Shown here in pieces: positions 48,281 through 63,019 of a stretch of 64,000 nucleotides of DNA. The position numbers and the translations under genes were made by a program. The notes beneath the pieces were generated by a model. The model worked only from the letters and a program-made list of their open reading frames with translations, had not been told where the DNA came from and made no database searches. This DNA comes from Methylacidimicrobium sp. B4. Lineage in GTDB: Bacteria > Verrucomicrobiota > Verrucomicrobiia > Methylacidiphilales > Methylacidiphilaceae. Where the stretch lies: the NCBI RefSeq assembly GCF_017310545.1, contig NZ_CP066203.1:744001-808000 (forward strand). Direction: 5' to 3'. Every line of letters starts with the position of its first letter. Position 1 is the stretch's first letter.

Positions 48281-48880
48281 ATGGCCGATTATCCCCCGAC
48301 CGTTCGCGAGCTGCTGGCCGCCTTGCGCGAGCTGCCCTCGATCGGTCCTCGTTCCGCAGAGCGGCTCGTCCTCTTCCTGCTGGAAGAGACCAAGGGGACC
48401 AAGGAGCGTCTCGCTCGCACCCTCCAGGCGGCGGGGACGCGGGTGCATCCCTGCGCGCGATGCGGCTTTTATGCGGAGGAAGAGCTCTGCGAGCTCTGCC
48501 GCGACCCGATCCGCGATCCGCTACTCTGGTGCGTGGTCGCCTCCGCTGGGGATGTCCTTCGCATCGAGCGGGCCTCGGCCTTCCGCGGCCTCTACCACGT
48601 CCTCGGCCGCAAGCTTTCCCCACTGGAAGGGATTGGGCCCGAAGAGCTCCCGACCAGCCATCTTCTGGCCCGCATCGAGCGGGAACATCCCCGGGAGATC
48701 ATCCTCGCCCTCGGCACCGACGCCGAAGGAGAGGCGACGGCGCTTTACCTGGGTCAGATCCTCAAGAAGACGGGCGCCCGAATTTCGAGCCTGGCCACAG
48801 GCCTCCCCGCCGGAGGCGGACTCGAGTTTGCCGACAGCGTCACGCTCAGCTACGCGCTGGCGGGACGTCGCGAGTTGTAG
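48281..48880 (+). CDS. recR: Recombination mediator RecR
   Basis: A 199-residue protein. The helix-hairpin-helix LRELPSIGPRSAERLVLFLL, the zinc finger CARCGFYAEEELCELC (four Cys), the Toprim part (WCVVASAGDVLRIERA..) and the C-terminal Walker-B-like ATGLPAGGGLEFAD are in order. It works with RecO to load RecA at gaps. It is the last gene of the dnaX operon. Its last 35 bases overlap the 3' end of the convergent universal stress gene. Confidence 0.95.
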   Translation: MADYPPTVRELLAALRELPSIGPRSAERLVLFLLEETKGTKERLARTLQAAGTRVHPCARCGFYAEEELCELCRDPIRDPLLWCVVASAGDVLRIERASAFRGLYHVLGRKLSPLEGIGPEELPTSHLLARIEREHPREIILALGTDAEGEATALYLGQILKKTGARISSLATGLPAGGGLEFADSVTLSYALAGRREL

Positions 48881-49376
48881 CCGGATCGGCCATCGTCCCG
48901 GCCTTGTCGCGCGATTCCGCACCGGCCTGAGCCGTGCCCACCGACCGCGGCACCCGCGCGATCAGGACAGCGCAAGCCGCCTCTTCGCTGACGCGAGCCG
49001 CGACGCTGCCGAGAGCCCTCCCCCAGGCCCCGAAGTGGCCGCTGTGGCCGAGAACGATCAGCTCGAACCCTTTTTCCTCCGCAAACCGGACGATCTCGAA
49101 CGCGGGGCTCCCGGTCTTTCGGGCAAGGGTCGCGGAATGCCCCCATCGCCGAGAGGCCGATTCGACATCCTTCTCGATCTCGGCGAGGAAAGCCTCCTCC
49201 CGCTCCTGCTGCATCTCGATCTCGCGGCCGATGTCGAAGAAGAAATAAGGCACGGGAGGAACGACCCAGAGCACCCCGCACTCGCTGCCGAGCGAGCGCG
49301 CCAAGCAGAGCCCCTCGTCGAGGGCGGTCCTTCCCCCTTCGGAACGGTCGTAGGCGACCAGGATTTTCTTGTACAT
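48846..49376 (-). CDS. Universal stress protein (UspA family)
   Basis: A 176-residue single Usp domain: KKILVAYDRSEGGRTAL at the N-terminus and GHSGHFGAWGRALGSVAARV, matching the ATP-binding G2xG9xG(S/T) motif. The segment VPYFFFDIGREIEMQQ is an aromatic-rich insertion. The C-terminal tail (residues about 148-176) is hydrophilic and overlaps recR. Members bind ATP and help survival under stress; the target is unknown. The ATG at 49376 matches the family start. Confidence 0.9.
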   Translation of the reverse strand: MYKKILVAYDRSEGGRTALDEGLCLARSLGSECGVLWVVPPVPYFFFDIGREIEMQQEREEAFLAEIEKDVESASRRWGHSATLARKTGSPAFEIVRFAEEKGFELIVLGHSGHFGAWGRALGSVAARVSEEAACAVLIARVPRSVGTAQAGAESRDKAGTMADPATTRDVPPARS

Positions 49377-49511
49377 GGCTCCTCCGCTCTTCCTAGTCGA
49401 GCGGGAGTCGGCTCGCAAAAAAGATCTTCCCCGCTCGCCCTATCCGAGCGACCCCGGGAAGAGCGCCGCCCAGGCAGCAGGCGGTCGGGCTCCCCGATCC
49501 ACCGGCCCGGA

Positions 49512-50162
49512 TCAAGGCCGCGGCCTCCTTGCTCTCTCCAGGAGTCGCTTGCGCCAGAAGCGATAGCCGAGAAATCCGAGGATGATCACCGCCACGACCT
49601 CCCCGATGCCGAGCGAGGCGAAGCTCTTTGGAGAAGGCATGCCGACGGCGATGGGAAACCGGAGCACGACTGGCTGGCTCGCACCATTCACAACCCCTTG
49701 GGGCTTGACCTCCAGGATATAGCGTCCCGGGTTTGAGAAATAGACCCGAAAGGAAGCGATTCCTTCTCGATAGACATGCGCCGGCGCCTCCGCCACCACC
49801 TCCCGGCTCGCCTCCCGGACCAGCGTCAGGACGATCGGCATCTTCCAGAGCGGGTGGCTGATGAGATCGAGCACCAGGGTCACCTCGCCGGTCTTGGGAA
49901 CGTTCTCGCAATAGCTCTCGTACATCTTCATCGGCTCGTACTTGCAGATGTCGAGATGGGCGGTGTAGCCAGCTTCGCTGACGATCCCGCAATCGATCGG
50001 TCCCTTCGGACGGTGGCGGTGGGCAAAGGAGGAAGTCGGAAGAAGGAGAGAGGCAGCCAGGAGGCAGAACGCGAGCCGAAGCAGCCAGCCGGAAATTTCC
50101 CGACCTCGTCTCCCGCCCGCACTGCCTGGGAGGCTTTCCGGCGCTGTGGATCCGTTGCTCAC
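49512..50162 (-). CDS. Periplasmic membrane-anchored protein, His1 paralog A
   Basis: 216 residues. The signal peptide ends in PTSSFA, so the mature protein would start at H48 (HRHRPKG). A beta-rich domain has Cys at 58, 73 and 85 (DCGIV, DICKY, SYCENVPKTG) and His in GYTAHLD (H69). It ends in an Ig-like strand pair (GRYILEVKP...VVLRFPIAVGM) and a C-terminal membrane helix (VVAVIILGFLGYRFW). It is clearly paralogous to the gene at 50576: both share CGxxxxxGY..H.D, YCxNVPxTG, LVLDL, GRY..E and RFPI..GM. The N-terminal His resembles CopC-like copper proteins; copper binding is inferred. No known family was recognised. Confidence 0.75.
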   Translation of the reverse strand: MSNGSTAPESLPGSAGGRRGREISGWLLRLAFCLLAASLLLPTSSFAHRHRPKGPIDCGIVSEAGYTAHLDICKYEPMKMYESYCENVPKTGEVTLVLDLISHPLWKMPIVLTLVREASREVVAEAPAHVYREGIASFRVYFSNPGRYILEVKPQGVVNGASQPVVLRFPIAVGMPSPKSFASLGIGEVVAVIILGFLGYRFWRKRLLERARRPRP

Positions 50163-50575
50163 GTTCTCTCGTCAAGCCTACTCGGGAGCGAAGAACGGGG
50201 CAAAAGGAAAAAACGAAAATCCCCGGCAGAAGCCGGGAGGCCCTAGGATCATGCAGGGAAGACCCCCGTCCAGAAACCGCCATCTCTCGCGGCGCCCGGA
50301 TTCCTTTGCGCAGAAGGGGCAAAAAGGGAGAGCGGCCCTCGACGCAGCGGTCTTCCCACTCTCGCCCGCGGCGGCGAAAGCCAGGAAGCGCGTGGCTTCC
50401 CAGGCGGAAGGGAGATGGTTCGCGCATCGGGGAATCTCCTAGGCCAGACGCCATGAAAAGCCGGGAGACTTTCTTCTTGCCGCGACGGCGAAAGTGCTAG
50501 TAATTGGTGCATTAGGCTCAAATATTGTCCCGTTCGCCTCTCACGCGGAGCAGGGATCAGCAAAAGGAGAACTCG
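50163..50575. other. Intergenic region between divergent His1 paralogs
   Basis: 413 bp. No gene is supported. The left part is GC-rich; an AT-richer stretch lies at 50490-50530 before the plus-strand paralog. It must hold promoters for both divergent genes. Confidence 0.5.
50477..50503 (+). promoter_or_regulatory. Weak candidate promoter for paralog B / multicopper oxidase
   Basis: TTGCCG (50477-50482), 15 bp, TAGTAA (50498-50503), preceded by TGC at the -10 (extended form). The -35 resembles the TTGCCA of both pmo promoters. It is 70-100 bp before the ATG at 50576. Spacing is short, so this is tentative. Confidence 0.3.
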
Positions 50576-51196
50576 ATGCGGAAGAAATGGCTCACCTTGG
50601 GACGGATCCTGGGGATTTCCCTCGCCCTTGCCTGGGGCGCTCAACCGCGCTTGGCCTGGGCGCACGGCGGAGGAAGCGGCGGGCTCGAATGCGGCATGAT
50701 GCAGCAGGGGGGGTACGCGATTCACATGGATGTCTATGTCTACGGCCACGGCGGCATGGCCGGCATGGGCGGCATGGGGAACTTCAAGACCTATTGCCGG
50801 AACGTCCCGACAACCGGGAAGATGAGCCTCGTGCTCGATCTGGTGACCCCGCAGCTTCGGAAGATCCCGATCGAGTGCAAGGTGCTCTCTTCCGACGGCC
50901 AGGTGGCCGCCCACTTCCCCGCCCAGATCTACTCGAGCGGAGTCGCCTCCTTGGACCTTGATTTGCCGAACCGAGGGCGATACATGGTGGAGCTCACGCT
51001 GGTCGACAAGGCCGGACCCGATGGCAAGCCGCTGGTCTTCCGCTTCCCGATCACGATTGGAATGGGCGTTGTCTGGATGGGGCTTGGGGCTGCGGGGCTG
51101 CTCGTGGTGGCAGGAGCTGGTATCCTCGTCTATCGCCGGATGGCGCGCCGGACGAGGCTCGCCGGACCTCCCGGCATCGAGGCGAGCGCCTCCTGA
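50576..51196 (+). CDS. Periplasmic membrane-anchored protein, His1 paralog B with Met/His-rich loop
   Basis: 206 residues. The signal peptide (RKKWLTLGRILGISLALAWG) ends PRLAWA, so the mature chain would begin at H30 (HGGGSGG). Cys occur at 39, 74 and 101; His at 50 and 58. Residues 57-68 (GHGGMAGMGGMG) form a Met/Gly/His-rich loop that could bind Cu(I); the paralog lacks it. The end is Ig-like strands (GRYMVELTLV...LVFRFPITIGM), then a C-terminal helix (VVWMGLGAAGLLVVAGAG). GGAGA precedes the ATG by seven bases. It is upstream of, and probably cotranscribed with, the multicopper oxidase. Confidence 0.78.
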   Translation: MRKKWLTLGRILGISLALAWGAQPRLAWAHGGGSGGLECGMMQQGGYAIHMDVYVYGHGGMAGMGGMGNFKTYCRNVPTTGKMSLVLDLVTPQLRKIPIECKVLSSDGQVAAHFPAQIYSSGVASLDLDLPNRGRYMVELTLVDKAGPDGKPLVFRFPITIGMGVVWMGLGAAGLLVVAGAGILVYRRMARRTRLAGPPGIEASAS

Positions 51197-51279
51197 GGCT
51201 CCCCTGGCGCGATCGGGCATCTTCGGCTATTGTGAATCAAAAGGATAGAATCCTTCCACCAGTGAACAAGGGGAAAGAG

Positions 51280-52968
51280 ATGCTGCAACCCGTAGGAAGA
51301 ACGAAGAGGTCGGCTTGGCTGCTCCTGCTCGCCGCAGCGGTCGTCGCCGCCGCCGGGAGCCTGCTGCTTCTCCAGAAACGTGGCGCCGGCCCATCCGGGC
51401 ATTACGACTTCTCGGTCGATCCCGACGCCTATCCGGGCACGAAGCCTTCTGAGGTGGTCCACCTGAAGGATGGGGAGAGCTTCTCGCTTTCGGCCGTCAA
51501 GGTGCAGGAGACGATCGCGGGAGCGAAGGTCAAGCAGCTCGCCTACAACGGCTCGGTTCCTGGTCCCTTCTTCTGGATTCCGCAGGGGGCTCATATCACC
51601 GTCTCTTTCGCCAACCAGACCGGGATCGCGACCACGATCCACTCCCACGGGGTGCGCCAGGACAACGCGCAGGATGGCGTTCCGGATGTGACCCAGCCGG
51701 CGATCGCTCCGGGAGCCAGCTACGTCTACCATTTCCGCTTCCCAGACCCCGGAGTCTACTGGTACCACCCCCATTTCCGGGATGATTTCGAGCAGGAGCT
51801 CGGCCTCTTCGGGGTCTACATGGTCGAGCCCACCGAGAAGGATTATTGGGGTCCGGCCAACCGAGAAGTTCCGCTGGTCCTCTCCGACATCCTGATCAAG
51901 GACGGCGTGGTCCCCGAATATCATGCCGACTATATCAACTTCGCGTTCATGGGAAGGTACGGGAACATCCCGCTCGTCAACGGGAAAACGCATGCCGTGA
52001 TCGACGTCAAGAAGGGAGAGGTCCTTCGCCTCTACCTGGTTGACAGCGCCTCGGCCCGCCCCTTCCGGATCCAGACGCCCGGTGTCCAGATGAAGCTCGT
52101 CGGTACGGATGGGGGACGCTACGAGCGCGAGCAGTGGGTCGACGCCGTGGTCGTCTCTCCCTCGGAGCGGCAGATCGTCGAGTGCTACTTCCCGAAGGAG
52201 GGGGAGTACAAGCTCATCCACCACGCCGTCGACCCGCTGGTCGGCGCGCGGACCTACGAGCTCGTGACCTTCCGCGTCGGCTCGGAAGAGGAGAGCCAGT
52301 CCTACGCCAAGGAGTTCGCAACTCTGCGGGAGAACAAGGCGACCATCGACGAGACGGAGGCGCTGGCTACCCGCTTTCGCGACACGCCTCCGGACAAGAC
52401 GATCCGCTTTCTCGTCTCGGTCTCAAAGCAGGCCGCCAAGGGGCTCGAGGAGCCGGGGAGCGCCCCTTCTGGCGCTCCAAAGCCGGGTGCCGCCTTTCCC
52501 GGGCTCCTGACGATCCTGGCCAAGACCGGAGCCAAGGTCGAATGGGAAGACCACATGTACAATCAGAACAAGGCATCGACCTCGCGCGAGGTACACTGGC
52601 AGATCGTCGATCTCGATACCGGCAAGGTCCTGGGACAGAAGATGGAAAAAGGCATGGGCGACATGGGGGGCAACATCGACTGGACCTTCAAGCAGGGAAG
52701 CTTCGCCAAGATCCGGATCATCAACGACATCCATTCCCTCCACCCGATGCAGCATCCCTTTCACATCCATGGACAGCGTTTTCTGGTCCTCAACACCAAC
52801 GGAGAGGATAACCCGAACAAGGCTTGGAAGGACACGGTGCTCGTCGGCGCGGGCGACACGATGGATATCCTGGTCGAGATGAGCAATCCCGGAACCTGGA
52901 TGGCCCACTGCCATATCCTGGAGCATCTCCATAGCGGGATGATGTTTTCCTTCGCTGTCACACCTTAG
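51280..52968 (+). CDS. Multicopper oxidase
   Basis: 562 residues after a hydrophobic signal/anchor (SAWLLLLAAAVVAAAGSLLLL). All copper motifs are present: HSHG (121-124), WYHPH (161-165), HPMQHPFHIHG (488-498) and HCHILEHLHSGMM (543-555), giving one T1 and a T2/T3 trinuclear site. Lengths fit a three-cupredoxin laccase/CueO-like enzyme. Met-rich bits (KGMGDMGG) occur near the C-terminal domain. Possible roles are Cu(I) or phenol oxidation in the periplasm. The ATG at 51280 has AAGGGG upstream and is preferred over the GTG at 51232. It is between paralog B and the DUF3347-like gene. Confidence 0.9.
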   Translation: MLQPVGRTKRSAWLLLLAAAVVAAAGSLLLLQKRGAGPSGHYDFSVDPDAYPGTKPSEVVHLKDGESFSLSAVKVQETIAGAKVKQLAYNGSVPGPFFWIPQGAHITVSFANQTGIATTIHSHGVRQDNAQDGVPDVTQPAIAPGASYVYHFRFPDPGVYWYHPHFRDDFEQELGLFGVYMVEPTEKDYWGPANREVPLVLSDILIKDGVVPEYHADYINFAFMGRYGNIPLVNGKTHAVIDVKKGEVLRLYLVDSASARPFRIQTPGVQMKLVGTDGGRYEREQWVDAVVVSPSERQIVECYFPKEGEYKLIHHAVDPLVGARTYELVTFRVGSEEESQSYAKEFATLRENKATIDETEALATRFRDTPPDKTIRFLVSVSKQAAKGLEEPGSAPSGAPKPGAAFPGLLTILAKTGAKVEWEDHMYNQNKASTSREVHWQIVDLDTGKVLGQKMEKGMGDMGGNIDWTFKQGSFAKIRIINDIHSLHPMQHPFHIHGQRFLVLNTNGEDNPNKAWKDTVLVGAGDTMDILVEMSNPGTWMAHCHILEHLHSGMMFSFAVTP

Positions 52969-53114
52969 CACGTAGCCATCCTATTGCTTCGTGCGATTCC
53001 TGCCGTTATGCTCTCTTGGGTAGTCTCGGGAAGAGGAGAGCGCTATCGCTATCGCCCGCTAGGGCTACGAATCGCGATCTGACGAGGATGGAGAGCGCAG
53101 AGGAAGAGGAGCCT

Positions 53115-53579
53115 ATGAGAGGAAGTCAGCGAGTCCTGGCGATTGTCTGGATCATAGCCGCTTGGGCATCGGCGGCCGTTGCCGCGCCCCTTCCTCCCGA
53201 CCTCGACGCGGTGATGCCCCCCTACCTCGCGATGGGAAAGGCGCTCGCGGAAGACTCGCTCAAAGGAATTCCCTCCCAGGCGACTGCGATGAAAGGCCTC
53301 GTCGAGCGCGCAGGAAGCGGCTTCTTCCCGAAGGAGCTGCCCCAAGATCTCGATCGACTCGCCAAAGCGGGCGATCTCGATGCCGCCCGTCTCGCATACA
53401 AGGACGTCAGCGACCGGCTGATCACCCTCTTCCGGGAGCACAAGGTCCAGACGGGCCGCTACTTCGTCTGCACCTGCCCGATGGCGCAGGCGAGCTGGAT
53501 TCAAGCCGACAAGGAGATCAAGAATCCCTATTACGGCTCGGCCATGCTTCTCTGCGGCGATGTGACGGAAACTTTTTAG
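53115..53579 (+). CDS. DUF3347-like secreted protein
   Basis: 154 residues with a signal peptide (VLAIVWIIAAWASAAVAA). The helical domain ends in CTCPMAQASWIQADKEIKNP followed by YYGSAMLLCGDV. It closely follows the DUF3347 pattern (CPMA..WLQ...NPY.G..ML.CG) found at the end of CusB-type copper efflux proteins or alone. The Cys/Met pattern could bind Cu(I). GGAG stands four bases before the ATG. It is 146 bp after the multicopper oxidase on the same strand, so a shared copper role is plausible. Confidence 0.8.
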   Translation: MRGSQRVLAIVWIIAAWASAAVAAPLPPDLDAVMPPYLAMGKALAEDSLKGIPSQATAMKGLVERAGSGFFPKELPQDLDRLAKAGDLDAARLAYKDVSDRLITLFREHKVQTGRYFVCTCPMAQASWIQADKEIKNPYYGSAMLLCGDVTETF

Positions 53580-55658: not shown

Positions 55659-56906
55659 CTACATCTGCGTCACGCCGAACTTCGGAATCACGAGCTGATC
55701 GGCGACGGCGATGATGCTCCGCGCCCCGGTCGGGTCGCTGAAGAAGAGCAGGCCGCCGAACCGATTGGTCGTCTCGTGGTACATCGTCAGCCGCTGGTTC
55801 TCCCACTCCGCACTCGCCATCACCACTTCGAGCACCTTGGTCTCTCCGGGCGCAACCGGCTCGGAGGGAGTGATCTTCATCGCACCCCCGTAGACCTCGG
55901 GGAAGTCCGGATTCCAGGCATTCCCCGGAACCTGCTCGTTGAGGAAGCGAACGTTGGCGGTGGTGAACTCCTTGAGCACCAACGGGCGATCCCCAGTATT
56001 GTGCACCTCGAGCCGGAAGGCGAGCGTACGACTCGGCACATCGTAGGTCGCATCCAGCACCTTCGCCTCCACGCGGGAGGGCTCAGGAGGAAGCGGCTCG
56101 TTCCGGATGATCGTCTCCTGAATCGGGATCGTATGCGGGAACTGCGATGCCGTCATCACGTTCGCCACCACGATCAAGCCGATCGTGCCCAGCGCGAAGA
56201 TGACCGCGACGGTCTTATCCGCACCGCTGATCAGCTCCTTCGCCCGCCCAGCCGCGACCACGCCCAACCGCGTGGTAAAGGGCCTTCCCAGCCAGAACCC
56301 GAGCCAGGCGATCCCAATCAGGGTGGTCACCAGGGTCCACATGAGCATCCGGCTCTCTCCATAGTCCTCCAGGTTGACCGTGTTGCCCAAGAGCGTCTTG
56401 ATCGGGTTGGTGAAGCCCTCGTGGCTGCCATCCACGTCGACGTAGATGGACGGCCCGATGAGCGGACCCGCATCCTTCATGCTCAGCATCACCCCAACCG
56501 GCCAGTGACCCGGATACCGCGCCCGGGTGATCGTCTTGTACTCATAGGTGCCGCCAAGCTCCAGCAACTGCGAGCAGGACATGAACCGACCGTTGATCCA
56601 GCTGCCCACCCGCAGGAACTGAGGCCCGGGAACGAAGAAGTTGAGCCAGGAAATGCCCGTGAAGGCGATCTCCTTCGGCCAGATCGGCAGAAGCTGAAAC
56701 TTCCCCGTCACCGTCATCTCGTCCCCAACCTTGAACTTCCGTCCGGAAAACTGGGTGTCATAGAAGATCACCGTCCGCATCCGGAGGAAGGCCTCCTGCG
56801 ACTTCTCGCCCAGAGCCCAGAGGCGATTCGTCGGTCCTGCCAGGATCATCCCCAGCAGGGCCAAGGCGCCCGCCCGCCCCATCATCCGCATTACTCTCTT
56901 TCTCAT
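55659..56906 (-). CDS. pmoB: Particulate methane monooxygenase subunit B, copy 1
   Basis: 415 residues. A signal peptide (MRKRVMRMMGRAG..LAGPTNRLWA) is followed by LGEKSQEAFLRMRT. In M. capsulatus the residue before GEKSQ is the copper ligand His33; here it is Leu32. The HxH pair of CuB (H137/H139) is also absent, reading Pro-Val-Gly before VMLSMKDAGP. This matches known verrucomicrobial PmoB. Two membrane helices (LMWTLVTTLIGIAWLGFWLG, TVAVIFALGTIGLIVVANVM) join the N- and C-terminal cupredoxin domains. The start at 56906 has GGGAGGAAGG upstream. It lies 17 bp after pmoA. Confidence 0.97.
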   Translation of the reverse strand: MRKRVMRMMGRAGALALLGMILAGPTNRLWALGEKSQEAFLRMRTVIFYDTQFSGRKFKVGDEMTVTGKFQLLPIWPKEIAFTGISWLNFFVPGPQFLRVGSWINGRFMSCSQLLELGGTYEYKTITRARYPGHWPVGVMLSMKDAGPLIGPSIYVDVDGSHEGFTNPIKTLLGNTVNLEDYGESRMLMWTLVTTLIGIAWLGFWLGRPFTTRLGVVAAGRAKELISGADKTVAVIFALGTIGLIVVANVMTASQFPHTIPIQETIIRNEPLPPEPSRVEAKVLDATYDVPSRTLAFRLEVHNTGDRPLVLKEFTTANVRFLNEQVPGNAWNPDFPEVYGGAMKITPSEPVAPGETKVLEVVMASAEWENQRLTMYHETTNRFGGLLFFSDPTGARSIIAVADQLVIPKFGVTQM

Positions 56907-56923
56907 CGTCTTCCTTCCTCCCC

Positions 56924-57688
56924 TCAGGCGTTCTTCACCTCGGCAGTAGCCGACTCGTAGTTCTTGAAGAACTTCGTGCTGCCGAAGAAATGAGCACCCA
57001 TGAGCCACCAGGGCACGTACATGCAGACCGAGCAGAAGGCCGAGAAGAAGGCGGCCACACCGGTCACCCCTCCCGCGAAGCTTCGCATCGTTCCCGTCTC
57101 CACGATCCGGAGATACTCCGGCGTCGAGGTGCGGACATACATGTAGTTGATCACATCCGCGATGCTCATCAATGAGCCCTGATACTCGACCGGCACGTGG
57201 AATGGCGCAACCATCACCCAGTTGGTCGGATAGAAGAGCCAGCCCCAGAGCTCGCCCCCCACCAGAGCGGTCACAATCCAGTTGCCGGTCAGCATCAACA
57301 CGATGTCGAGCACGACCGCCGCCGGAATGAAGGTCTCCGGAAAGACGAAGTTGAGCGGATAGTGGGTCCATCCCCAGAAGTTGATGTACCGGTTCATCCA
57401 CTCCCCAAAGAGCAGCCCCAGGCAGCAGAACGTCGCCCCGATCGGCATCCGGAACTTCGTCCAGAGAACCGCCTGCACCGCCGCCGGGAAGGTGATCTCC
57501 AGGACCGGAGCCACAATCGGCCACCAGTTCCGATCTTTCCAGTCGATCCAGAACGACCAGTCTCCCGCCACCAGCATCTGGTGGACATGGAAGCCCGCGA
57601 TGAGGACCAGGAAGGTCGACATGATGACGACCAGGTCGAACTTGCGTGCGACCGCCTTCGCCTCCGCGTCTACTTGCGAATATTGCAT
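56924..57688 (-). CDS. pmoA: Particulate methane monooxygenase subunit A, copy 1
   Basis: 254 residues with about seven membrane helices. The PmoA signatures LVAGDWSFWIDWKDRNWWP, FWGWTHYPLNFVFP, GNWIVTALVGGELWGWLFYP and the late FHVPVEYQG, TPEYLRIVETG are complete. The protein is identical to copy 2, and the DNA appears identical as well. It makes the membrane core of the enzyme that oxidises methane to methanol. It is preceded by a strong hairpin in the pmoC-pmoA spacer. Confidence 0.98.
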   Translation of the reverse strand: MQYSQVDAEAKAVARKFDLVVIMSTFLVLIAGFHVHQMLVAGDWSFWIDWKDRNWWPIVAPVLEITFPAAVQAVLWTKFRMPIGATFCCLGLLFGEWMNRYINFWGWTHYPLNFVFPETFIPAAVVLDIVLMLTGNWIVTALVGGELWGWLFYPTNWVMVAPFHVPVEYQGSLMSIADVINYMYVRTSTPEYLRIVETGTMRSFAGGVTGVAAFFSAFCSVCMYVPWWLMGAHFFGSTKFFKNYESATAEVKNA

Positions 57689-57713
57689 TGGTTACTTTCC
57701 CCCTCTGCAAGAG

Positions 57714-57739
57714 TGGGGGCGGGGTGGCACCCCGCCCCT
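57714..57739 (-). promoter_or_regulatory. Strong hairpin between pmoC and pmoA, copy 1
   Basis: GGGGCGGGGTG / CACCCCGCCCC (stem about 11 bp, tiny loop) in the 118-bp pmoC-pmoA spacer, without a T-run. The same hairpin is at 61112-61137 in operon 2. It may slow 3'-5' decay of a pmoC fragment or attenuate read-through, so adjusting subunit ratios. Confidence 0.6.
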
Positions 57740-57806
57740 CCTCTTGCTTTCGTGTTTTCTTCTTTTTCCGATTCTCTCGGTCCCTGATCGGTCCGCTTAT
57801 GCGCGC

Positions 57807-58646
57807 CTAGAGCACGCAGGCAACGCAAGCAGCGGGATCGCACGAGCTTTGCGGATCCCTCATCACCTCGGCCGGGCTCTGAATCGGCTTGCCATAGTAG
57901 ATGTGGTTGATCAGCGCCAAGACCCGCGGGCAGACCTGCAACCAGGTTCCGAGGATCGCCAGCGCACCCCAGCCGAACGTCACGAAGCCCCAGTGGAGCG
58001 GAGCCACGAAGAGCTCCTCCATGAACCACCGGGTGTGGCCGAACTCGTTGAGTCCGACGTTCGGGAAGATCATCAACGGAGCGCCCACCAGTACCGCGTA
58101 GGGCAACGAAAATGCCTTGGCGAACTGGGGCAACCGGGTCATCGCGTAGACCAGCGAGCCCACACCGAAGATGATGTAGATGGGATAGCTCTGATAGAAC
58201 TCGATCACATGGCTCGGGGTGAAGTCGGTATCCCGAATCACGGTCTGGTGCCAGGTGCCGTCCTGCTCCGTGAAGTAGCTGGCACCCGCATATGCCGCAT
58301 AGGTATAGGTCAGGACAAAAAGTCCCAAGGCCCAATACCGCTTGAGCTCTTCCGCCGGAGAGAGGCGCTCGAGCGCCCGATCCCGCGTCATCCAGAGCCA
58401 GCCCCAGAGCGCACCCGCCGTGACCGCTTCCATGACCAGCTCCGCAAAGAGCATGCTCATCCAGTAAGTCGTATAATCCGCCGACGTGTAGTCGAGCCCT
58501 TTTGCCAGGGCGTAGAGCCTCTCGTACACGTTGATCAGGACGTCAAAGACGATCAACGCGCCAATCGCAACGACCGCACTCTTCCAGGAAAAGGCGGTGA
58601 GCGGCGGACGCGCGACAGCCGTTGCCGTCGTTTGTGTCTGTGCCAT
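57807..58646 (-). CDS. pmoC: Particulate methane monooxygenase subunit C, copy 1
   Basis: 279 residues with about six helices. The conserved metal region RDTDFTPSHVIEFYQSYP holds the Asp and His of the PmoC copper site. The C-terminus ends SSCDPAACVACVL, with three cysteines, two in a CxxC. Compared with copy 2 it differs at a few positions (ALAKG vs AFSKG, MSMLF vs LGMLF, DTD vs DND) and in this tail. The start at 58646 (MAQTQTTATAVA) has GGGAGAAA upstream. It is the first gene of the operon, with a leader of about 125 nt. Confidence 0.97.
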   Translation of the reverse strand: MAQTQTTATAVARPPLTAFSWKSAVVAIGALIVFDVLINVYERLYALAKGLDYTSADYTTYWMSMLFAELVMEAVTAGALWGWLWMTRDRALERLSPAEELKRYWALGLFVLTYTYAAYAGASYFTEQDGTWHQTVIRDTDFTPSHVIEFYQSYPIYIIFGVGSLVYAMTRLPQFAKAFSLPYAVLVGAPLMIFPNVGLNEFGHTRWFMEELFVAPLHWGFVTFGWGALAILGTWLQVCPRVLALINHIYYGKPIQSPAEVMRDPQSSCDPAACVACVL

Positions 58647-58778
58647 ACGTTTGATTTCTCCCTTTCTACCACTCTGCTTCTCTGCGCCCCGGATACACCT
58701 TCCAAGGCGCGACCGCCAACCTCCGGGGAGGGCGATCAAAAACCGCGTGACCTTTCGCCAAACGGTGTTTCGCAAGCA

Positions 58779-58806
58779 ACCGTAACGCAAGACCATGGGT
58801 TGGCAA
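58779..58806 (-). promoter_or_regulatory. Sigma70-like promoter of pmoCAB operon 1
   Basis: On the minus strand: TTGCCA (58806-58801), 16 bp, TACGGT (58784-58779). The -10 is 133 bp before the pmoC ATG. The same arrangement (TTGCCA, 16 bp, TACGAT) is found at 134 bp before pmoC in operon 2, although the surrounding DNA has diverged. Confidence 0.6.
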
Positions 58807-59056: not shown

Positions 59057-60304
59057 TTACATCTGCGTCACGCCGAACTTCGGAATCACGAGCTGATCGG
59101 CGACGGCGATGATGCTCCGCGCCCCGGTCGGGTCGCTGAAGAAGAGCAGGCCGCCGAACCGATTGGTCGTCTCGTGGTACATCGTCAGCCGCTGGTTCTC
59201 CCACTCCGCACTCGCCATCACCACTTCGAGCACCTTGGTCTCTCCGGGCGCAACCGGCTCGGAGGGAGTGATCTTCATCGCACCCCCGTAGACCTCGGGG
59301 AAGTCCGGATTCCAGGCATTCCCCGGAACCTGCTCGTTGAGGAAGCGAACGTTGGCGGTGGTGAACTCCTTGAGCACCAACGGGCGATCCCCAGTATTGT
59401 GCACCTCGAGCCGGAAGGCGAGCGTACGACTCGGCACATCGTAGGTCGCATCCAGCACCTTCGCCTCCACGCGGGAGGGCTCAGGAGGAAGCGGCTGGTT
59501 CCGGATGATCGTCTCCTGAATCGGGATCGTATGCGGGAACTGCGATGCCGTCATCACGTTCGCCACCGCGACCAAGCCGATCGTGCCCAGCGCGAAGAAG
59601 ACTGCGACGGTCTTATCCGCACCGCTGATCAGCTCCTTCGCCCGCCCAGCCGCGACCACGCCCAACCGCGTGGTAAAGGGCCTTCCCAGCCAGAACCCGA
59701 GCCAGGCGATCCCAATCAGGGTGGTCACCAGGGTCCACATGAGCATCCGGCTCTCTCCATAGTCCTCCAGGTTGACCGTGTTGCCCAAGAGCGTCTTGAT
59801 CGGGTTGGTGAAGCCCTCGTGGCTGCCATCCACGTCGACGTAGATGGACGGCCCGATGAGCGGACCCGCATCCTTCATGCTCAGCATCACCCCAACCGGC
59901 CAGTGACCCGGATACCGCGCCCGGGTGATCGTCTTGTACTCATAGGTGCCGCCAAGCTCCAGCAACTGCGAGCAGGACATGAACCGACCGTTGATCCAGC
60001 TGCCCACCCGCAGGAACTGAGGCCCGGGAACGAAGAAGTTGAGCCAGGAAATGCCCGTGAAGGCGATCTCCTTCGGCCAGATCGGCAGAAGCTGAAACTT
60101 CCCCGTCACCGTCATCTCGTCCCCAACCTTGAACTTCCGTCCGGAAAACTGGGTGTCATAGAAGATCACCGTCCGCATCCGGAGGAAGGCCTCCTGCGAC
60201 TTCTCGCCCAGAGCCCAGAGGCGATTCGTCGGTCCTGCCAGGATCATCCCCAGCAGGGCCAAGGCGCCCGCCCGCCCCATCATCCGCATTACTCTCTTTC
60301 TCAT
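59057..60304 (-). CDS. pmoB: Particulate methane monooxygenase subunit B, copy 2
   Basis: 415 residues, same length as copy 1. The visible changes are in and near the second membrane helix and just after it: VFFALGTIGLVAVAN for VIFALGTIGLIVVAN and IRNQPLPP for IRNEPLPP. The remaining text is the same, including Leu32 and Pro-Val-Gly where CuB histidines stand in proteobacteria. The stop is TAA, not TAG as in copy 1, so the two copies part right at the stop codon. Confidence 0.97.
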   Translation of the reverse strand: MRKRVMRMMGRAGALALLGMILAGPTNRLWALGEKSQEAFLRMRTVIFYDTQFSGRKFKVGDEMTVTGKFQLLPIWPKEIAFTGISWLNFFVPGPQFLRVGSWINGRFMSCSQLLELGGTYEYKTITRARYPGHWPVGVMLSMKDAGPLIGPSIYVDVDGSHEGFTNPIKTLLGNTVNLEDYGESRMLMWTLVTTLIGIAWLGFWLGRPFTTRLGVVAAGRAKELISGADKTVAVFFALGTIGLVAVANVMTASQFPHTIPIQETIIRNQPLPPEPSRVEAKVLDATYDVPSRTLAFRLEVHNTGDRPLVLKEFTTANVRFLNEQVPGNAWNPDFPEVYGGAMKITPSEPVAPGETKVLEVVMASAEWENQRLTMYHETTNRFGGLLFFSDPTGARSIIAVADQLVIPKFGVTQM

Positions 60305-60321
60305 CGTCTTCCTTCCTCCCC

Positions 60322-61086
60322 TCAGGCGTTCTTCACCTCGGCAGTAGCCGACTCGTAGTTCTTGAAGAACTTCGTGCTGCCGAAGAAATGAGCACCCATG
60401 AGCCACCAGGGCACGTACATGCAGACCGAGCAGAAGGCCGAGAAGAAGGCGGCCACACCGGTCACCCCTCCCGCGAAGCTTCGCATCGTTCCCGTCTCCA
60501 CGATCCGGAGATACTCCGGCGTCGAGGTGCGGACATACATGTAGTTGATCACATCCGCGATGCTCATCAATGAGCCCTGATACTCGACCGGCACGTGGAA
60601 TGGCGCAACCATCACCCAGTTGGTCGGATAGAAGAGCCAGCCCCAGAGCTCGCCCCCCACCAGAGCGGTCACAATCCAGTTGCCGGTCAGCATCAACACG
60701 ATGTCGAGCACGACCGCCGCCGGAATGAAGGTCTCCGGAAAGACGAAGTTGAGCGGATAGTGGGTCCATCCCCAGAAGTTGATGTACCGGTTCATCCACT
60801 CCCCAAAGAGCAGCCCCAGGCAGCAGAACGTCGCCCCGATCGGCATCCGGAACTTCGTCCAGAGAACCGCCTGCACCGCCGCCGGGAAGGTGATCTCCAG
60901 GACCGGAGCCACAATCGGCCACCAGTTCCGATCTTTCCAGTCGATCCAGAACGACCAGTCTCCCGCCACCAGCATCTGGTGGACATGGAAGCCCGCGATG
61001 AGGACCAGGAAGGTCGACATGATGACGACCAGGTCGAACTTGCGTGCGACCGCCTTCGCCTCCGCGTCTACTTGCGAATATTGCAT
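60322..61086 (-). CDS. pmoA: Particulate methane monooxygenase subunit A, copy 2
   Basis: 254 residues, identical to copy 1 in protein and apparently in DNA. That points to a recent copy or continuing gene conversion. It lies 17 bp before pmoB-2, with the same GGAGG-type site between them. A reader using pmoA as a marker would count these as one sequence although two operons exist. Confidence 0.98.
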   Translation of the reverse strand: MQYSQVDAEAKAVARKFDLVVIMSTFLVLIAGFHVHQMLVAGDWSFWIDWKDRNWWPIVAPVLEITFPAAVQAVLWTKFRMPIGATFCCLGLLFGEWMNRYINFWGWTHYPLNFVFPETFIPAAVVLDIVLMLTGNWIVTALVGGELWGWLFYPTNWVMVAPFHVPVEYQGSLMSIADVINYMYVRTSTPEYLRIVETGTMRSFAGGVTGVAAFFSAFCSVCMYVPWWLMGAHFFGSTKFFKNYESATAEVKNA

Positions 61087-61111
61087 TGGTTACTTTCCCC
61101 CTCTGCAAGAG

Positions 61112-61137
61112 TGGGGGCGGGGTGGCACCCCGCCCCT
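61112..61137 (-). promoter_or_regulatory. Strong hairpin between pmoC and pmoA, copy 2
   Basis: Same GGGGCGGGGTG/CACCCCGCCCC stem as at 57714-57739. The bases that follow toward pmoC have diverged between copies (an indel of 13 bp in total), while the hairpin is unchanged. Confidence 0.6.
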
Positions 61138-61191
61138 CTCCTTGCTTTTCGTGTTTTCTTCTTTCCGATTCTCTCGGTCCCTGATGCGGGC

Positions 61192-62031
61192 CTACATCGC
61201 GCAGGCAGCGCACGCAGCGGGATTCACCGAGCTCTGCGGATCCTTCATCACCTCGGCCGGGCTCTGAATCGGCTTGCCGTAGTAGATGTGGTTGATCAGC
61301 GCCAAGACCCGCGGGCAGACCTGCAACCAGGTTCCGAGGATCGCCAGCGCACCCCAGCCGAACGTCACGAAGCCCCAGTGGAGCGGAGCCACGAAGAGCT
61401 CCTCCATGAACCACCGGGTGTGGCCGAACTCGTTGAGTCCGACGTTCGGGAAGATCATCAACGGAGCGCCCACCAGTACCGCGTAGGGCAACGAAAATGC
61501 CTTGGCGAACTGGGGCAACCGGGTCATCGCGTAGACCAGCGAGCCCACACCGAAGATGATGTAGATGGGATAGCTCTGATAGAACTCGATCACATGGCTC
61601 GGGGTGAAGTCGTTATCCCGAATCACCGTCTGGTGCCAAGTGCCGTCCTGCTCCGTGAAGTAGCTCGCGCCGGCATATGCCGCATAGGTATAGGTCAGGA
61701 CAAAAAGTCCCAAGGCCCAATACCGCTTGAGCTCTTCCGCCGGAGAGAGGCGCTCGAGCGCCCGATCCCGCGTCATCCAGAGCCAGCCCCACAGCGCACC
61801 CGCCGTGACCGCTTCCAGGACGAGCTCCGCGAAGAGCATACCCAGCCAGTAGGTATTGTAATCCGCCGACGTGTAGTCGAGGCCCTTCGAAAAGGCGTAG
61901 AGCCTCTCGTACACGTTGATCAGGACGTCAAAGACGATCAACGCGCCAATCGCAACGACCGCACTCTTCCAGGAAAAGGCGGTGAGCGGCGGACGCGCGA
62001 CAGCCGTTGCCGTCGTTTGTGTCTGTGCCAT
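61192..62031 (-). CDS. pmoC: Particulate methane monooxygenase subunit C, copy 2
   Basis: 279 residues. It has the DNDFTPSHVIEFYQSYP copper region, and the C-terminal tail SSVNPAACAACAM retains the CxxC but lost one Cys relative to copy 1. Changes from copy 1 cluster at residues about 45-70 (RLYAFSKGLDY, NTYWLGMLFAELVLEA), which is membrane-facing. The start at 62031 and ribosome site match copy 1. It is the first gene of operon 2. Confidence 0.97.
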   Translation of the reverse strand: MAQTQTTATAVARPPLTAFSWKSAVVAIGALIVFDVLINVYERLYAFSKGLDYTSADYNTYWLGMLFAELVLEAVTAGALWGWLWMTRDRALERLSPAEELKRYWALGLFVLTYTYAAYAGASYFTEQDGTWHQTVIRDNDFTPSHVIEFYQSYPIYIIFGVGSLVYAMTRLPQFAKAFSLPYAVLVGAPLMIFPNVGLNEFGHTRWFMEELFVAPLHWGFVTFGWGALAILGTWLQVCPRVLALINHIYYGKPIQSPAEVMKDPQSSVNPAACAACAM

Positions 62032-62386
62032 ACGTTTGATTTCTCCCTTTCTACCACTCTGCTTCTCTGCGCCCCGGATGCACCCTCCGAGACGCGACCG
62101 CCAACCTCCGGGGAAGGCAGCCAAAAGACCGAACGGATTTACTCGAAACGGCCTTTTAGCAGTGATCGTAGTCCAAAGGATAGGGATGGCAAGTAGATTT
62201 ACGGCCCTTTTTCTAAGGCGTTCCCCTACGTAATCTTCGGTGCTCTTCCCTCGCGATGGATCGAGATCATCCAGGAAGGCGCGGGCGTCCCGGAGGGAGA
62301 GAGGATGCGTAGATCGCCAGCATTTCTCTGAACCTGGACGGGGATAGTTCTGGACAGGACGCTCCGCCGTTGCTGCAATTCCTGCC
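62032..62386. other. Divergent upstream region between pmoC-2 and the methyltransferase
   Basis: 355 bp. From the left it holds the pmoC-2 leader (similar to copy 1 to about 62126), the promoter above, then about 190 bp with no gene. The right part must drive the plus-strand methyltransferase; I see no clear promoter for it. Confidence 0.5.
62165..62192 (-). promoter_or_regulatory. Sigma70-like promoter of pmoCAB operon 2
   Basis: On the minus strand: TTGCCA (62192-62187), 16 bp, TACGAT (62170-62165), 134 bp before the pmoC ATG. It repeats the arrangement at operon 1, while the spacer sequence is different, suggesting that selection keeps the two hexamers. Confidence 0.6.
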
Positions 62387-63019
62387 ATGGAGGAAATCCA
62401 ATCATCGGCGCGCTACTTCGAGGAAGTCGCTGCGGAATGGGATACGCTCCGGAAGGGGTTTTTTCGAGACGCGGTTCGGGAAAAGGCGCTCGATCTGGCA
62501 AAGGTCCAGGCGGGCGAACGAGCGGCGGATATCGGGGCGGGGACGGGTTTTCTGACCGAAGCCCTCCTCAAGCGGGGCCTGGAGGTCGTCGCCGTCGACC
62601 GTTCCCCCGCCATGCTTGCGGAGCTGACGAGGAAGTTCGGCGGTCGATCCGGCTTCCGGTGCATGCCAGGCGAGACCGATGCGCTGCCGCTCGAGGCGTC
62701 CGCCGTGGACTGCTGCTTTGCCAACATGGTGCTCCACCATGTCGAGAGCCCGGAAGCGATGATCCGCGAGCTCTTTCGAATTCTCAAGCCCGGCGGCCGG
62801 GCGGTCCTCACCGATTTCGAGCGGCATGGCTTCGATTTCTTCCTGAGCGAGTACTACGACCGCTGGCCGGGATTCCCTCCGCCCGAGGTGGCTTCCCTCT
62901 TCCGGGAGGCAGGCTTCGCCACCGTGGAGGCAGGCCCCCTTGGCGAAGTCTGCCAGGCGGAAAGCTCCACCGGCATCCGGGGGATTGTGCCAATCTTCTT
63001 TGTCCGGGCGGTGCGATAA
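62387..63019 (+). CDS. Class I SAM-dependent methyltransferase
   Basis: 210 residues. The SAM-binding motif ADIGAGTGFLTEALL, the following acidic strand VVAVDRSPAML, the PLEASAVDCCFANMVLHHVESP region and LKPGGRAVLTDF match the UbiE/ArsM-like Methyltransf_11 group. The C-terminal half (residues about 150-210) is divergent, so the substrate is unknown. The ATG at 62387 is the first in frame. It is divergent from pmoCAB-2, so any link with methane oxidation is only by position. Confidence 0.85.
   Translation: MEEIQSSARYFEEVAAEWDTLRKGFFRDAVREKALDLAKVQAGERAADIGAGTGFLTEALLKRGLEVVAVDRSPAMLAELTRKFGGRSGFRCMPGETDALPLEASAVDCCFANMVLHHVESPEAMIRELFRILKPGGRAVLTDFERHGFDFFLSEYYDRWPGFPPPEVASLFREAGFATVEAGPLGEVCQAESSTGIRGIVPIFFVRAVR

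Follow-up and report, generated by a model that had tools for sequence, protein, structure and literature searches.

Two divergently transcribed genes of Methylacidimicrobium sp. B4, here called A and B, almost certainly encode members of the PmoD/AmoD family. The explanation that best accounts for the evidence overall, and one that we consider likely, is that A and B are old PmoD/AmoD paralogs that help supply copper to neighbouring copper enzymes. The PmoD family, its crystal structure and its presence in verrucomicrobial methanotrophs are known already; what appears to be new here is two further members of this known family, with a predicted N-terminal histidine as one less ordinary feature. 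All coordinates refer to the window, the 64,000-nucleotide stretch of DNA that was analysed.

A divergent gene pair near two pmo operons

Gene A (49512..50162, minus strand) encodes a protein of 216 aa from a GTG start, and NVSN upstream is also present in its ortholog in a second genome of the genus. The predicted signal peptide (50022..50162) ends in TSSFA, and the predicted mature chain (49515..50021) starts with HRHRPKGPIDC, contains an internal His in GYTAHLD, and has a transmembrane (TM) helix at about 49527-49631. Gene B (50576..51196, plus strand) lies across the intergenic region 50163..50575 and encodes 206 aa. An initial reading of this DNA, made from the sequence only, had started B at a TTG at 50525, which we replaced with the ATG at 50576 behind AGGAG. 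The signal peptide of B (50576..50662), predicted by rules, ends in RLAWA, the predicted mature chain (50663..51193) starts with HGGGSGGLEC and has its internal His in GYAIHMD, and a C-terminal membrane helix (51074..51160) is seen in the structure model. B also carries a Met/His loop, GHGGMAGMGGMG (50744..50779), which the sequence-only reading had noticed in one of the two proteins and which is an insertion limited to Methylacidimicrobium. In an alignment with the ortholog L003 (SQGGMAGMGGMG), the three Met of the loop are conserved and the His is lost.

The two proteins are 34% identical across 169 aa (E 4e-28), in agreement with their description as divergent paralogs, and in each a beta domain is predicted to lie between a hydrophobic signal peptide and a hydrophobic C-terminal helix, the latter as had been proposed for the membrane anchor. 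A shared three-Cys domain had also been proposed, and this had to be revised. Numbered from the predicted mature start, the Cys are C10, C45 and C72 in B and C11, C26 and C38 in A, and only C10/C11 and C45/C38 align; C72 of B (in IPIEC) and C26 of A (in HLDIC) are not equivalent. The His of the GY..H.D motif bore out the earlier description, being present in A and B and invariant across 15 aligned verrucomicrobial homologs, some of which read GPF or GDF in place of the GY. In the second genome of the genus the A/B pair is syntenic with 75-80% identity. The gene pair and its conserved His are beyond chance.

The surroundings of the pair were as first described, with a multicopper oxidase (MCO) and two pmoCAB operons adjoining. 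Downstream of A is a universal stress protein gene (48846..49418, minus strand), in an order conserved in the second genome. Downstream of B is a CueO/CopA-like MCO with an N-terminal membrane anchor (51232..52968, plus strand; the start may be 51280), followed by the third gene of a conserved cluster, which encodes a DUF3347-like secreted protein (53016..53579, plus strand; domain matches below the curated cut-off). Its motif CTCPM...NPYYGSAMLLCG resembles the copper-binding tails of efflux adaptor proteins. The B-MCO-DUF3347 order is kept in Methylacidiphilum-type genomes, at 59% identity for the MCO and 57-59% for DUF3347, and there the cluster is distant from the pmo operons; such "-type" genus labels were inferred from gene content and the literature. 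One passage in PMC6688271 cites the pmoD of Methylococcus that adjoins a multicopper oxidase as copper-responsive.

The pmoCAB operons start about 4.5 kb further along and occupy 55659..58796 and 59057..62388, both on the minus strand. These tandem copies are nearly identical and their PmoA reading frames are identical, pointing to a recent duplication or to gene conversion. Both PmoB proteins of the window (55659-56930 and 59057-60330, minus strand) read LWA/LGEKSQEAF, with a slash for the predicted cleavage site, at the place where proteobacterial PmoB has an N-terminal His. This fits reports that PmoB has lost copper ligands in Verrucomicrobia. By predicted cleavage, the neighbouring A and B keep a His at the position where PmoB of the window is without it.

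Family membership, metal-site motif and distribution

The sole significant PDB sequence match was PmoD of Methylocystis sp. Rockwell (6cpd), at E 8.4e-7 for B and 2.5e-4 for A singly, and at E 4.2e-14 with a sequence profile. Template-free AlphaFold models matched the same structure in Foldseek (E 7.6e-10 for B and 3e-9 for A) and in structural comparison (Z 15.6 for B and 15.1 for A; the second-best chains reached 10.1 and 9.2), and superposed on it with an rmsd of 2.1 A (B) and 2.3 A (A) over 114-115 residues. The alignments behind the models included Methylocystis PmoDs, and the fold and sequence evidence are therefore not independent. A and B also show the hallmarks of PmoD, namely two invariant Cys (CxnC), a predicted signal peptide and one predicted TM helix at the C-terminus. 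When A, B and 15 homologs were scanned against Pfam and NCBIfam, no real match emerged; matches to MG2, sortase-anchor and haemoglobin models were noise. Because neither database has a model for PmoD, annotation tools label such proteins "hypothetical". For CopC, YtkA and LPMO there was no Pfam match above the cut-off, and a missing match does not exclude homology. The family that A and B do match is a metal-binding one.

PmoD of Methylocystis has a CuA site with ligands Cys41, Met49 and His51 in its crystal structure, and CuA formation requires the motif Cx7MxHxnC (PMC6189053). In our alignment the internal His of A and B corresponds to His51; it is the homolog of this PmoD CuA ligand and not of the brace ligand of CopC or LPMO. 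The CuA motif is absent in both proteins, which read Cx10H, and at the site of Met49 B has Ala and A has either Thr or Ala according to the register of the alignment. Both genes also sit outside the two pmoCAB operons, unlike those of the CuA-forming subclass of PmoD. The Ala at Met49 and the Cx10H spacing make a Methylocystis-like CuA centre unlikely, and copper would more likely occupy a mononuclear site. Copper binding has been shown for PmoD, and its loss in Methylosinus causes a copper-dependent growth defect, while the exact in vivo role of any PmoD is unknown (PMC6189053). The copper binding first proposed for A and B thus agrees with membership in an experimentally copper-binding family, and for these two proteins it would follow by analogy with their relatives.

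The family was found, by single-protein and profile searches, in 7 of 388 Verrucomicrobiota genomes, all in the family of the source genome, and PmoB (PF04744) was found in exactly the same seven; no member was found among these genomes where pmoB was missing. The presence/absence comparison suggested by the sequence-only reading thus links the family to pmoB. Among 99 genomes of the alphaproteobacterial family of a Methylocystis genome, PmoD was present in six, five of which have PmoB, and the profile gave 6-11 matches per PmoD-bearing genome. The mixed-phylum alignment was too diverse for a genome scan, and a narrower alignment was used instead. A single-protein match to a 1324-aa ORF in genome G134 was gone in the profile search. 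This co-occurrence repeats the published link of PmoD with copper membrane monooxygenases (PMC6189053).

PmoD was found on plasmids only in Methylocystis, Methylosinus, Methylomagnum and Nitrosomonas, and not in the viral contigs and phage records that were searched. On plasmids of Methylocystis and on a conjugative Nitrosomonas plasmid, a lone amoC/pmoC is followed by a PmoD-family gene annotated as a hypothetical protein (L041:2884-4456, L039:889-4441 and L042:2951-4417). The PmoD of the Nitrosomonas plasmid is predicted to start with His and contains Cx7MxH, the CuA motif.

In a tree, verrucomicrobial and proteobacterial PmoDs separate, save for one long-branch Methylomagnum sequence. The A pair and the B pair of the two Methylacidimicrobium-type genomes form separate, old lineages, and A is therefore not a recent copy of B. 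No ortholog of A was found in the other genera sampled, and B has counterparts in Methylacidiphilum-type genomes inside the conserved PmoD-MCO-DUF3347 cluster. Three further observations concern these relatives. L008 and L010 (G008:C1:326235-326846 and 329491-330102) are identical PmoD genes in the same orientation, about 3.3 kb apart, in a draft genome with one pmoB, and are a recent duplication or an assembly artefact. L031, L034 and L035 lie beside the third pmoB of Methylacidiphilum-type genomes, in what the literature describes as the acetone monooxygenase cluster; their branch is very long (4.4 changes per column) and they lack an N-terminal His, which suggests a changed role. L012-L015, a Methylacidiphilum-type group, start SFA/DCGHVCNKNAGRFKC; instead of the leading His, their N-terminal stretch contains a His and two extra Cys.

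The predicted N-terminal histidine

Both mature chains had been read as starting with His (SFA/H and AWA/H). A rule-based -3/-1 predictor placed the best site at A/H in both proteins, whereas a weight matrix built from 20 sequences, too sparse to be used without the complementary rule-based predictor, agreed for A only and preferred RLA/WAH, two residues earlier, for B. In a few other PmoDs, too, an alternative site, either behind HG or slightly further upstream, has an equal or marginally better score, and L099, with a better site after HA, was counted as not His-first.

Among verrucomicrobial PmoDs, six of eight groups have a His directly behind a plausible signal-peptidase site, as in AWA/HGGGSGGLEC, SFA/HRHRPKGPIDC, CFG/HGGSDNGGMEC and FA/HGRLVP, and most PmoDs of these Verrucomicrobia thus appear, by predicted cleavage, to begin with His. 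The same is seen in several proteobacterial groups, among them the alphaproteobacterial Cx8M PmoDs (AHA/HGDVGSNQGQC and ASA/HGRLGAAEGRC) and the Nitrosomonas plasmid copy (FA/HGKVTLESDIC); gammaproteobacterial, NC10 and comammox PmoDs were thinly sampled. Across both phyla, 10 of 20 non-redundant PmoDs are His-first, as compared with 1 of 50 (about 2%) signal-peptide genes in a 464-kb sample of the source genome that includes the window. The trait was seen in none of the four non-redundant PmoDs that are without the internal metal motif, which start with other residues. Mapped on the tree, the His-first label required 7 changes as compared with 20.5 in shuffles, a contrast that near-copies inflate.

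These counts favour the idea that His-first PmoDs have a true N-terminal copper site, in which His1 would bind Cu through its amine and its side chain and the internal His or a Met would complete the site, an idea that we regard as possible but doubtful. Such a site would resemble a histidine brace or, for A with its His-Arg-His, an ATCUN-like site. In all published in vitro PmoD constructs the N-terminus is extended by Ser-Met. These two residues would block a site of this kind, so an N-terminal ligand would have been masked in published PmoD work. Against an N-terminal site, residues 1-9 of both models have a pLDDT below 50, and the cleavage sites are predictions, with an ambiguity for B. 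Classic alphaproteobacterial CuA-type PmoDs are predicted to start with Glu, so copper binding by PmoD does not need His1. TEM beta-lactamase likewise starts with His and is without copper.

The histidine-brace reading may hold for A and B in that the N-terminal His is conserved, while its position in the models is without confidence, and our literature search found no paper linking PmoD with the brace. We consider it rather unlikely that His-first PmoDs hold a second copper site made of the free N-terminal His and an internal His or Met. If true, PmoDs would split into CuA-type and N-terminal-His-type copper carriers, the latter hidden by extended constructs. A conserved His masked in all published constructs would also offer a simple explanation of how most PmoDs can bind copper although they show no recognised site.

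Proposed function and comparison with known systems

In the copper-supply model that we propose, A and B are each exported by a predicted Sec signal peptide, expose a cupredoxin-like beta domain with the two invariant Cys to the periplasm, and are held in the inner membrane by a single helix at the C-terminus. Each protein probably binds copper at the periplasmic membrane surface and helps to move it to adjacent copper enzymes, or to keep them loaded. B would serve the MCO of its own B-MCO-DUF3347 cluster as well as pMMO, and A probably serves pMMO. Ligands would come from an exposed N-terminal patch comprising the conserved Cys pair, the His51-equivalent His and, in B, the Met-rich loop; that the predicted His1 adds a further ligand is conceivable, if on the doubtful side. 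The loss of activity in isolated pMMO is a long-standing question and PmoD is a leading candidate for the missing helper. A and B extend PmoD in acidophilic methanotrophs whose PmoB is without the usual copper ligands.

B might instead belong to a copper tolerance module that works without pMMO and in which B passes Cu(I) to its cluster partners, the CueO-like oxidase and the DUF3347 protein. The conserved three-gene cluster and its distance from the pmo operons in Methylacidiphilum-type genomes fit such a role, but the absence of the family from sampled Verrucomicrobiota without pmoB ties it to pMMO physiology, and we judge the module unlikely. Improbable, in our view, is that A and B are substrate-delivery or structural partners of pMMO without an essential metal. 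This has a precedent in the Methylacidiphilum PmoD proposed to deliver acetone to its enzyme, in which Met-to-Ala is said to abolish the known copper site (PMC8764830). The Ala at the Met49 site agrees with this, and strict co-occurrence with pMMO suits any partner role, but the two invariant Cys are retained together with the His ligand, and B clusters with copper genes, not within pmo operons. An unrelated new copper-binding family, as first supposed, would account for the lack of a Pfam or NCBIfam model, but the strong sequence and structure match to PmoD and the published verrucomicrobial PmoDs (PMC6189053, PMC6688271, PMC8764830, PMC7907005) leave it next to no probability.

A and B share with 6cpd the signal peptide, the cupredoxin-like domain, the two invariant Cys, the His51 equivalent and the C-terminal helix. 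They differ from it in having Ala for Met49, Cx10H for Cx7MxH, a predicted mature start with His rather than Glu, and genes that are not in a pmo operon. With the histidine-brace proteins CopC, LPMO, PmoB and PCuAC they would share a mature N-terminal His and a second His; however, no significant match was found by sequence, their internal His is part of the metal patch of PmoD, and no brace geometry is seen in the models, in which residues 1-9 have low confidence.

Most methanotroph genomes, verrucomicrobial ones included, have at least two PmoD homologs (PMC6189053). The Methylacidiphilum Kam1 genome has four, one of them beside a multicopper oxidase, like B (PMC6688271). In IT6 PmoD, two Cys and one His are conserved and Met is replaced by Ala (PMC8764830), and the Kam1, SolV, V4 and IT6 PmoDs share Cx10H and the Ala with A and B (C31/H42/C63 in IT6; PMC6688271, PMC8764830). 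In contrast to these, A is without a close ortholog outside Methylacidimicrobium-type genomes and the Met-rich loop of B is confined to the genus. Methylacidimicrobium thermophilum AP8 has two tandem pmoCAB operons and, a few genes away, a single separate pmoD (PMC7907005), an arrangement like that of the window except that two divergent copies are present here and one is reported in AP8.
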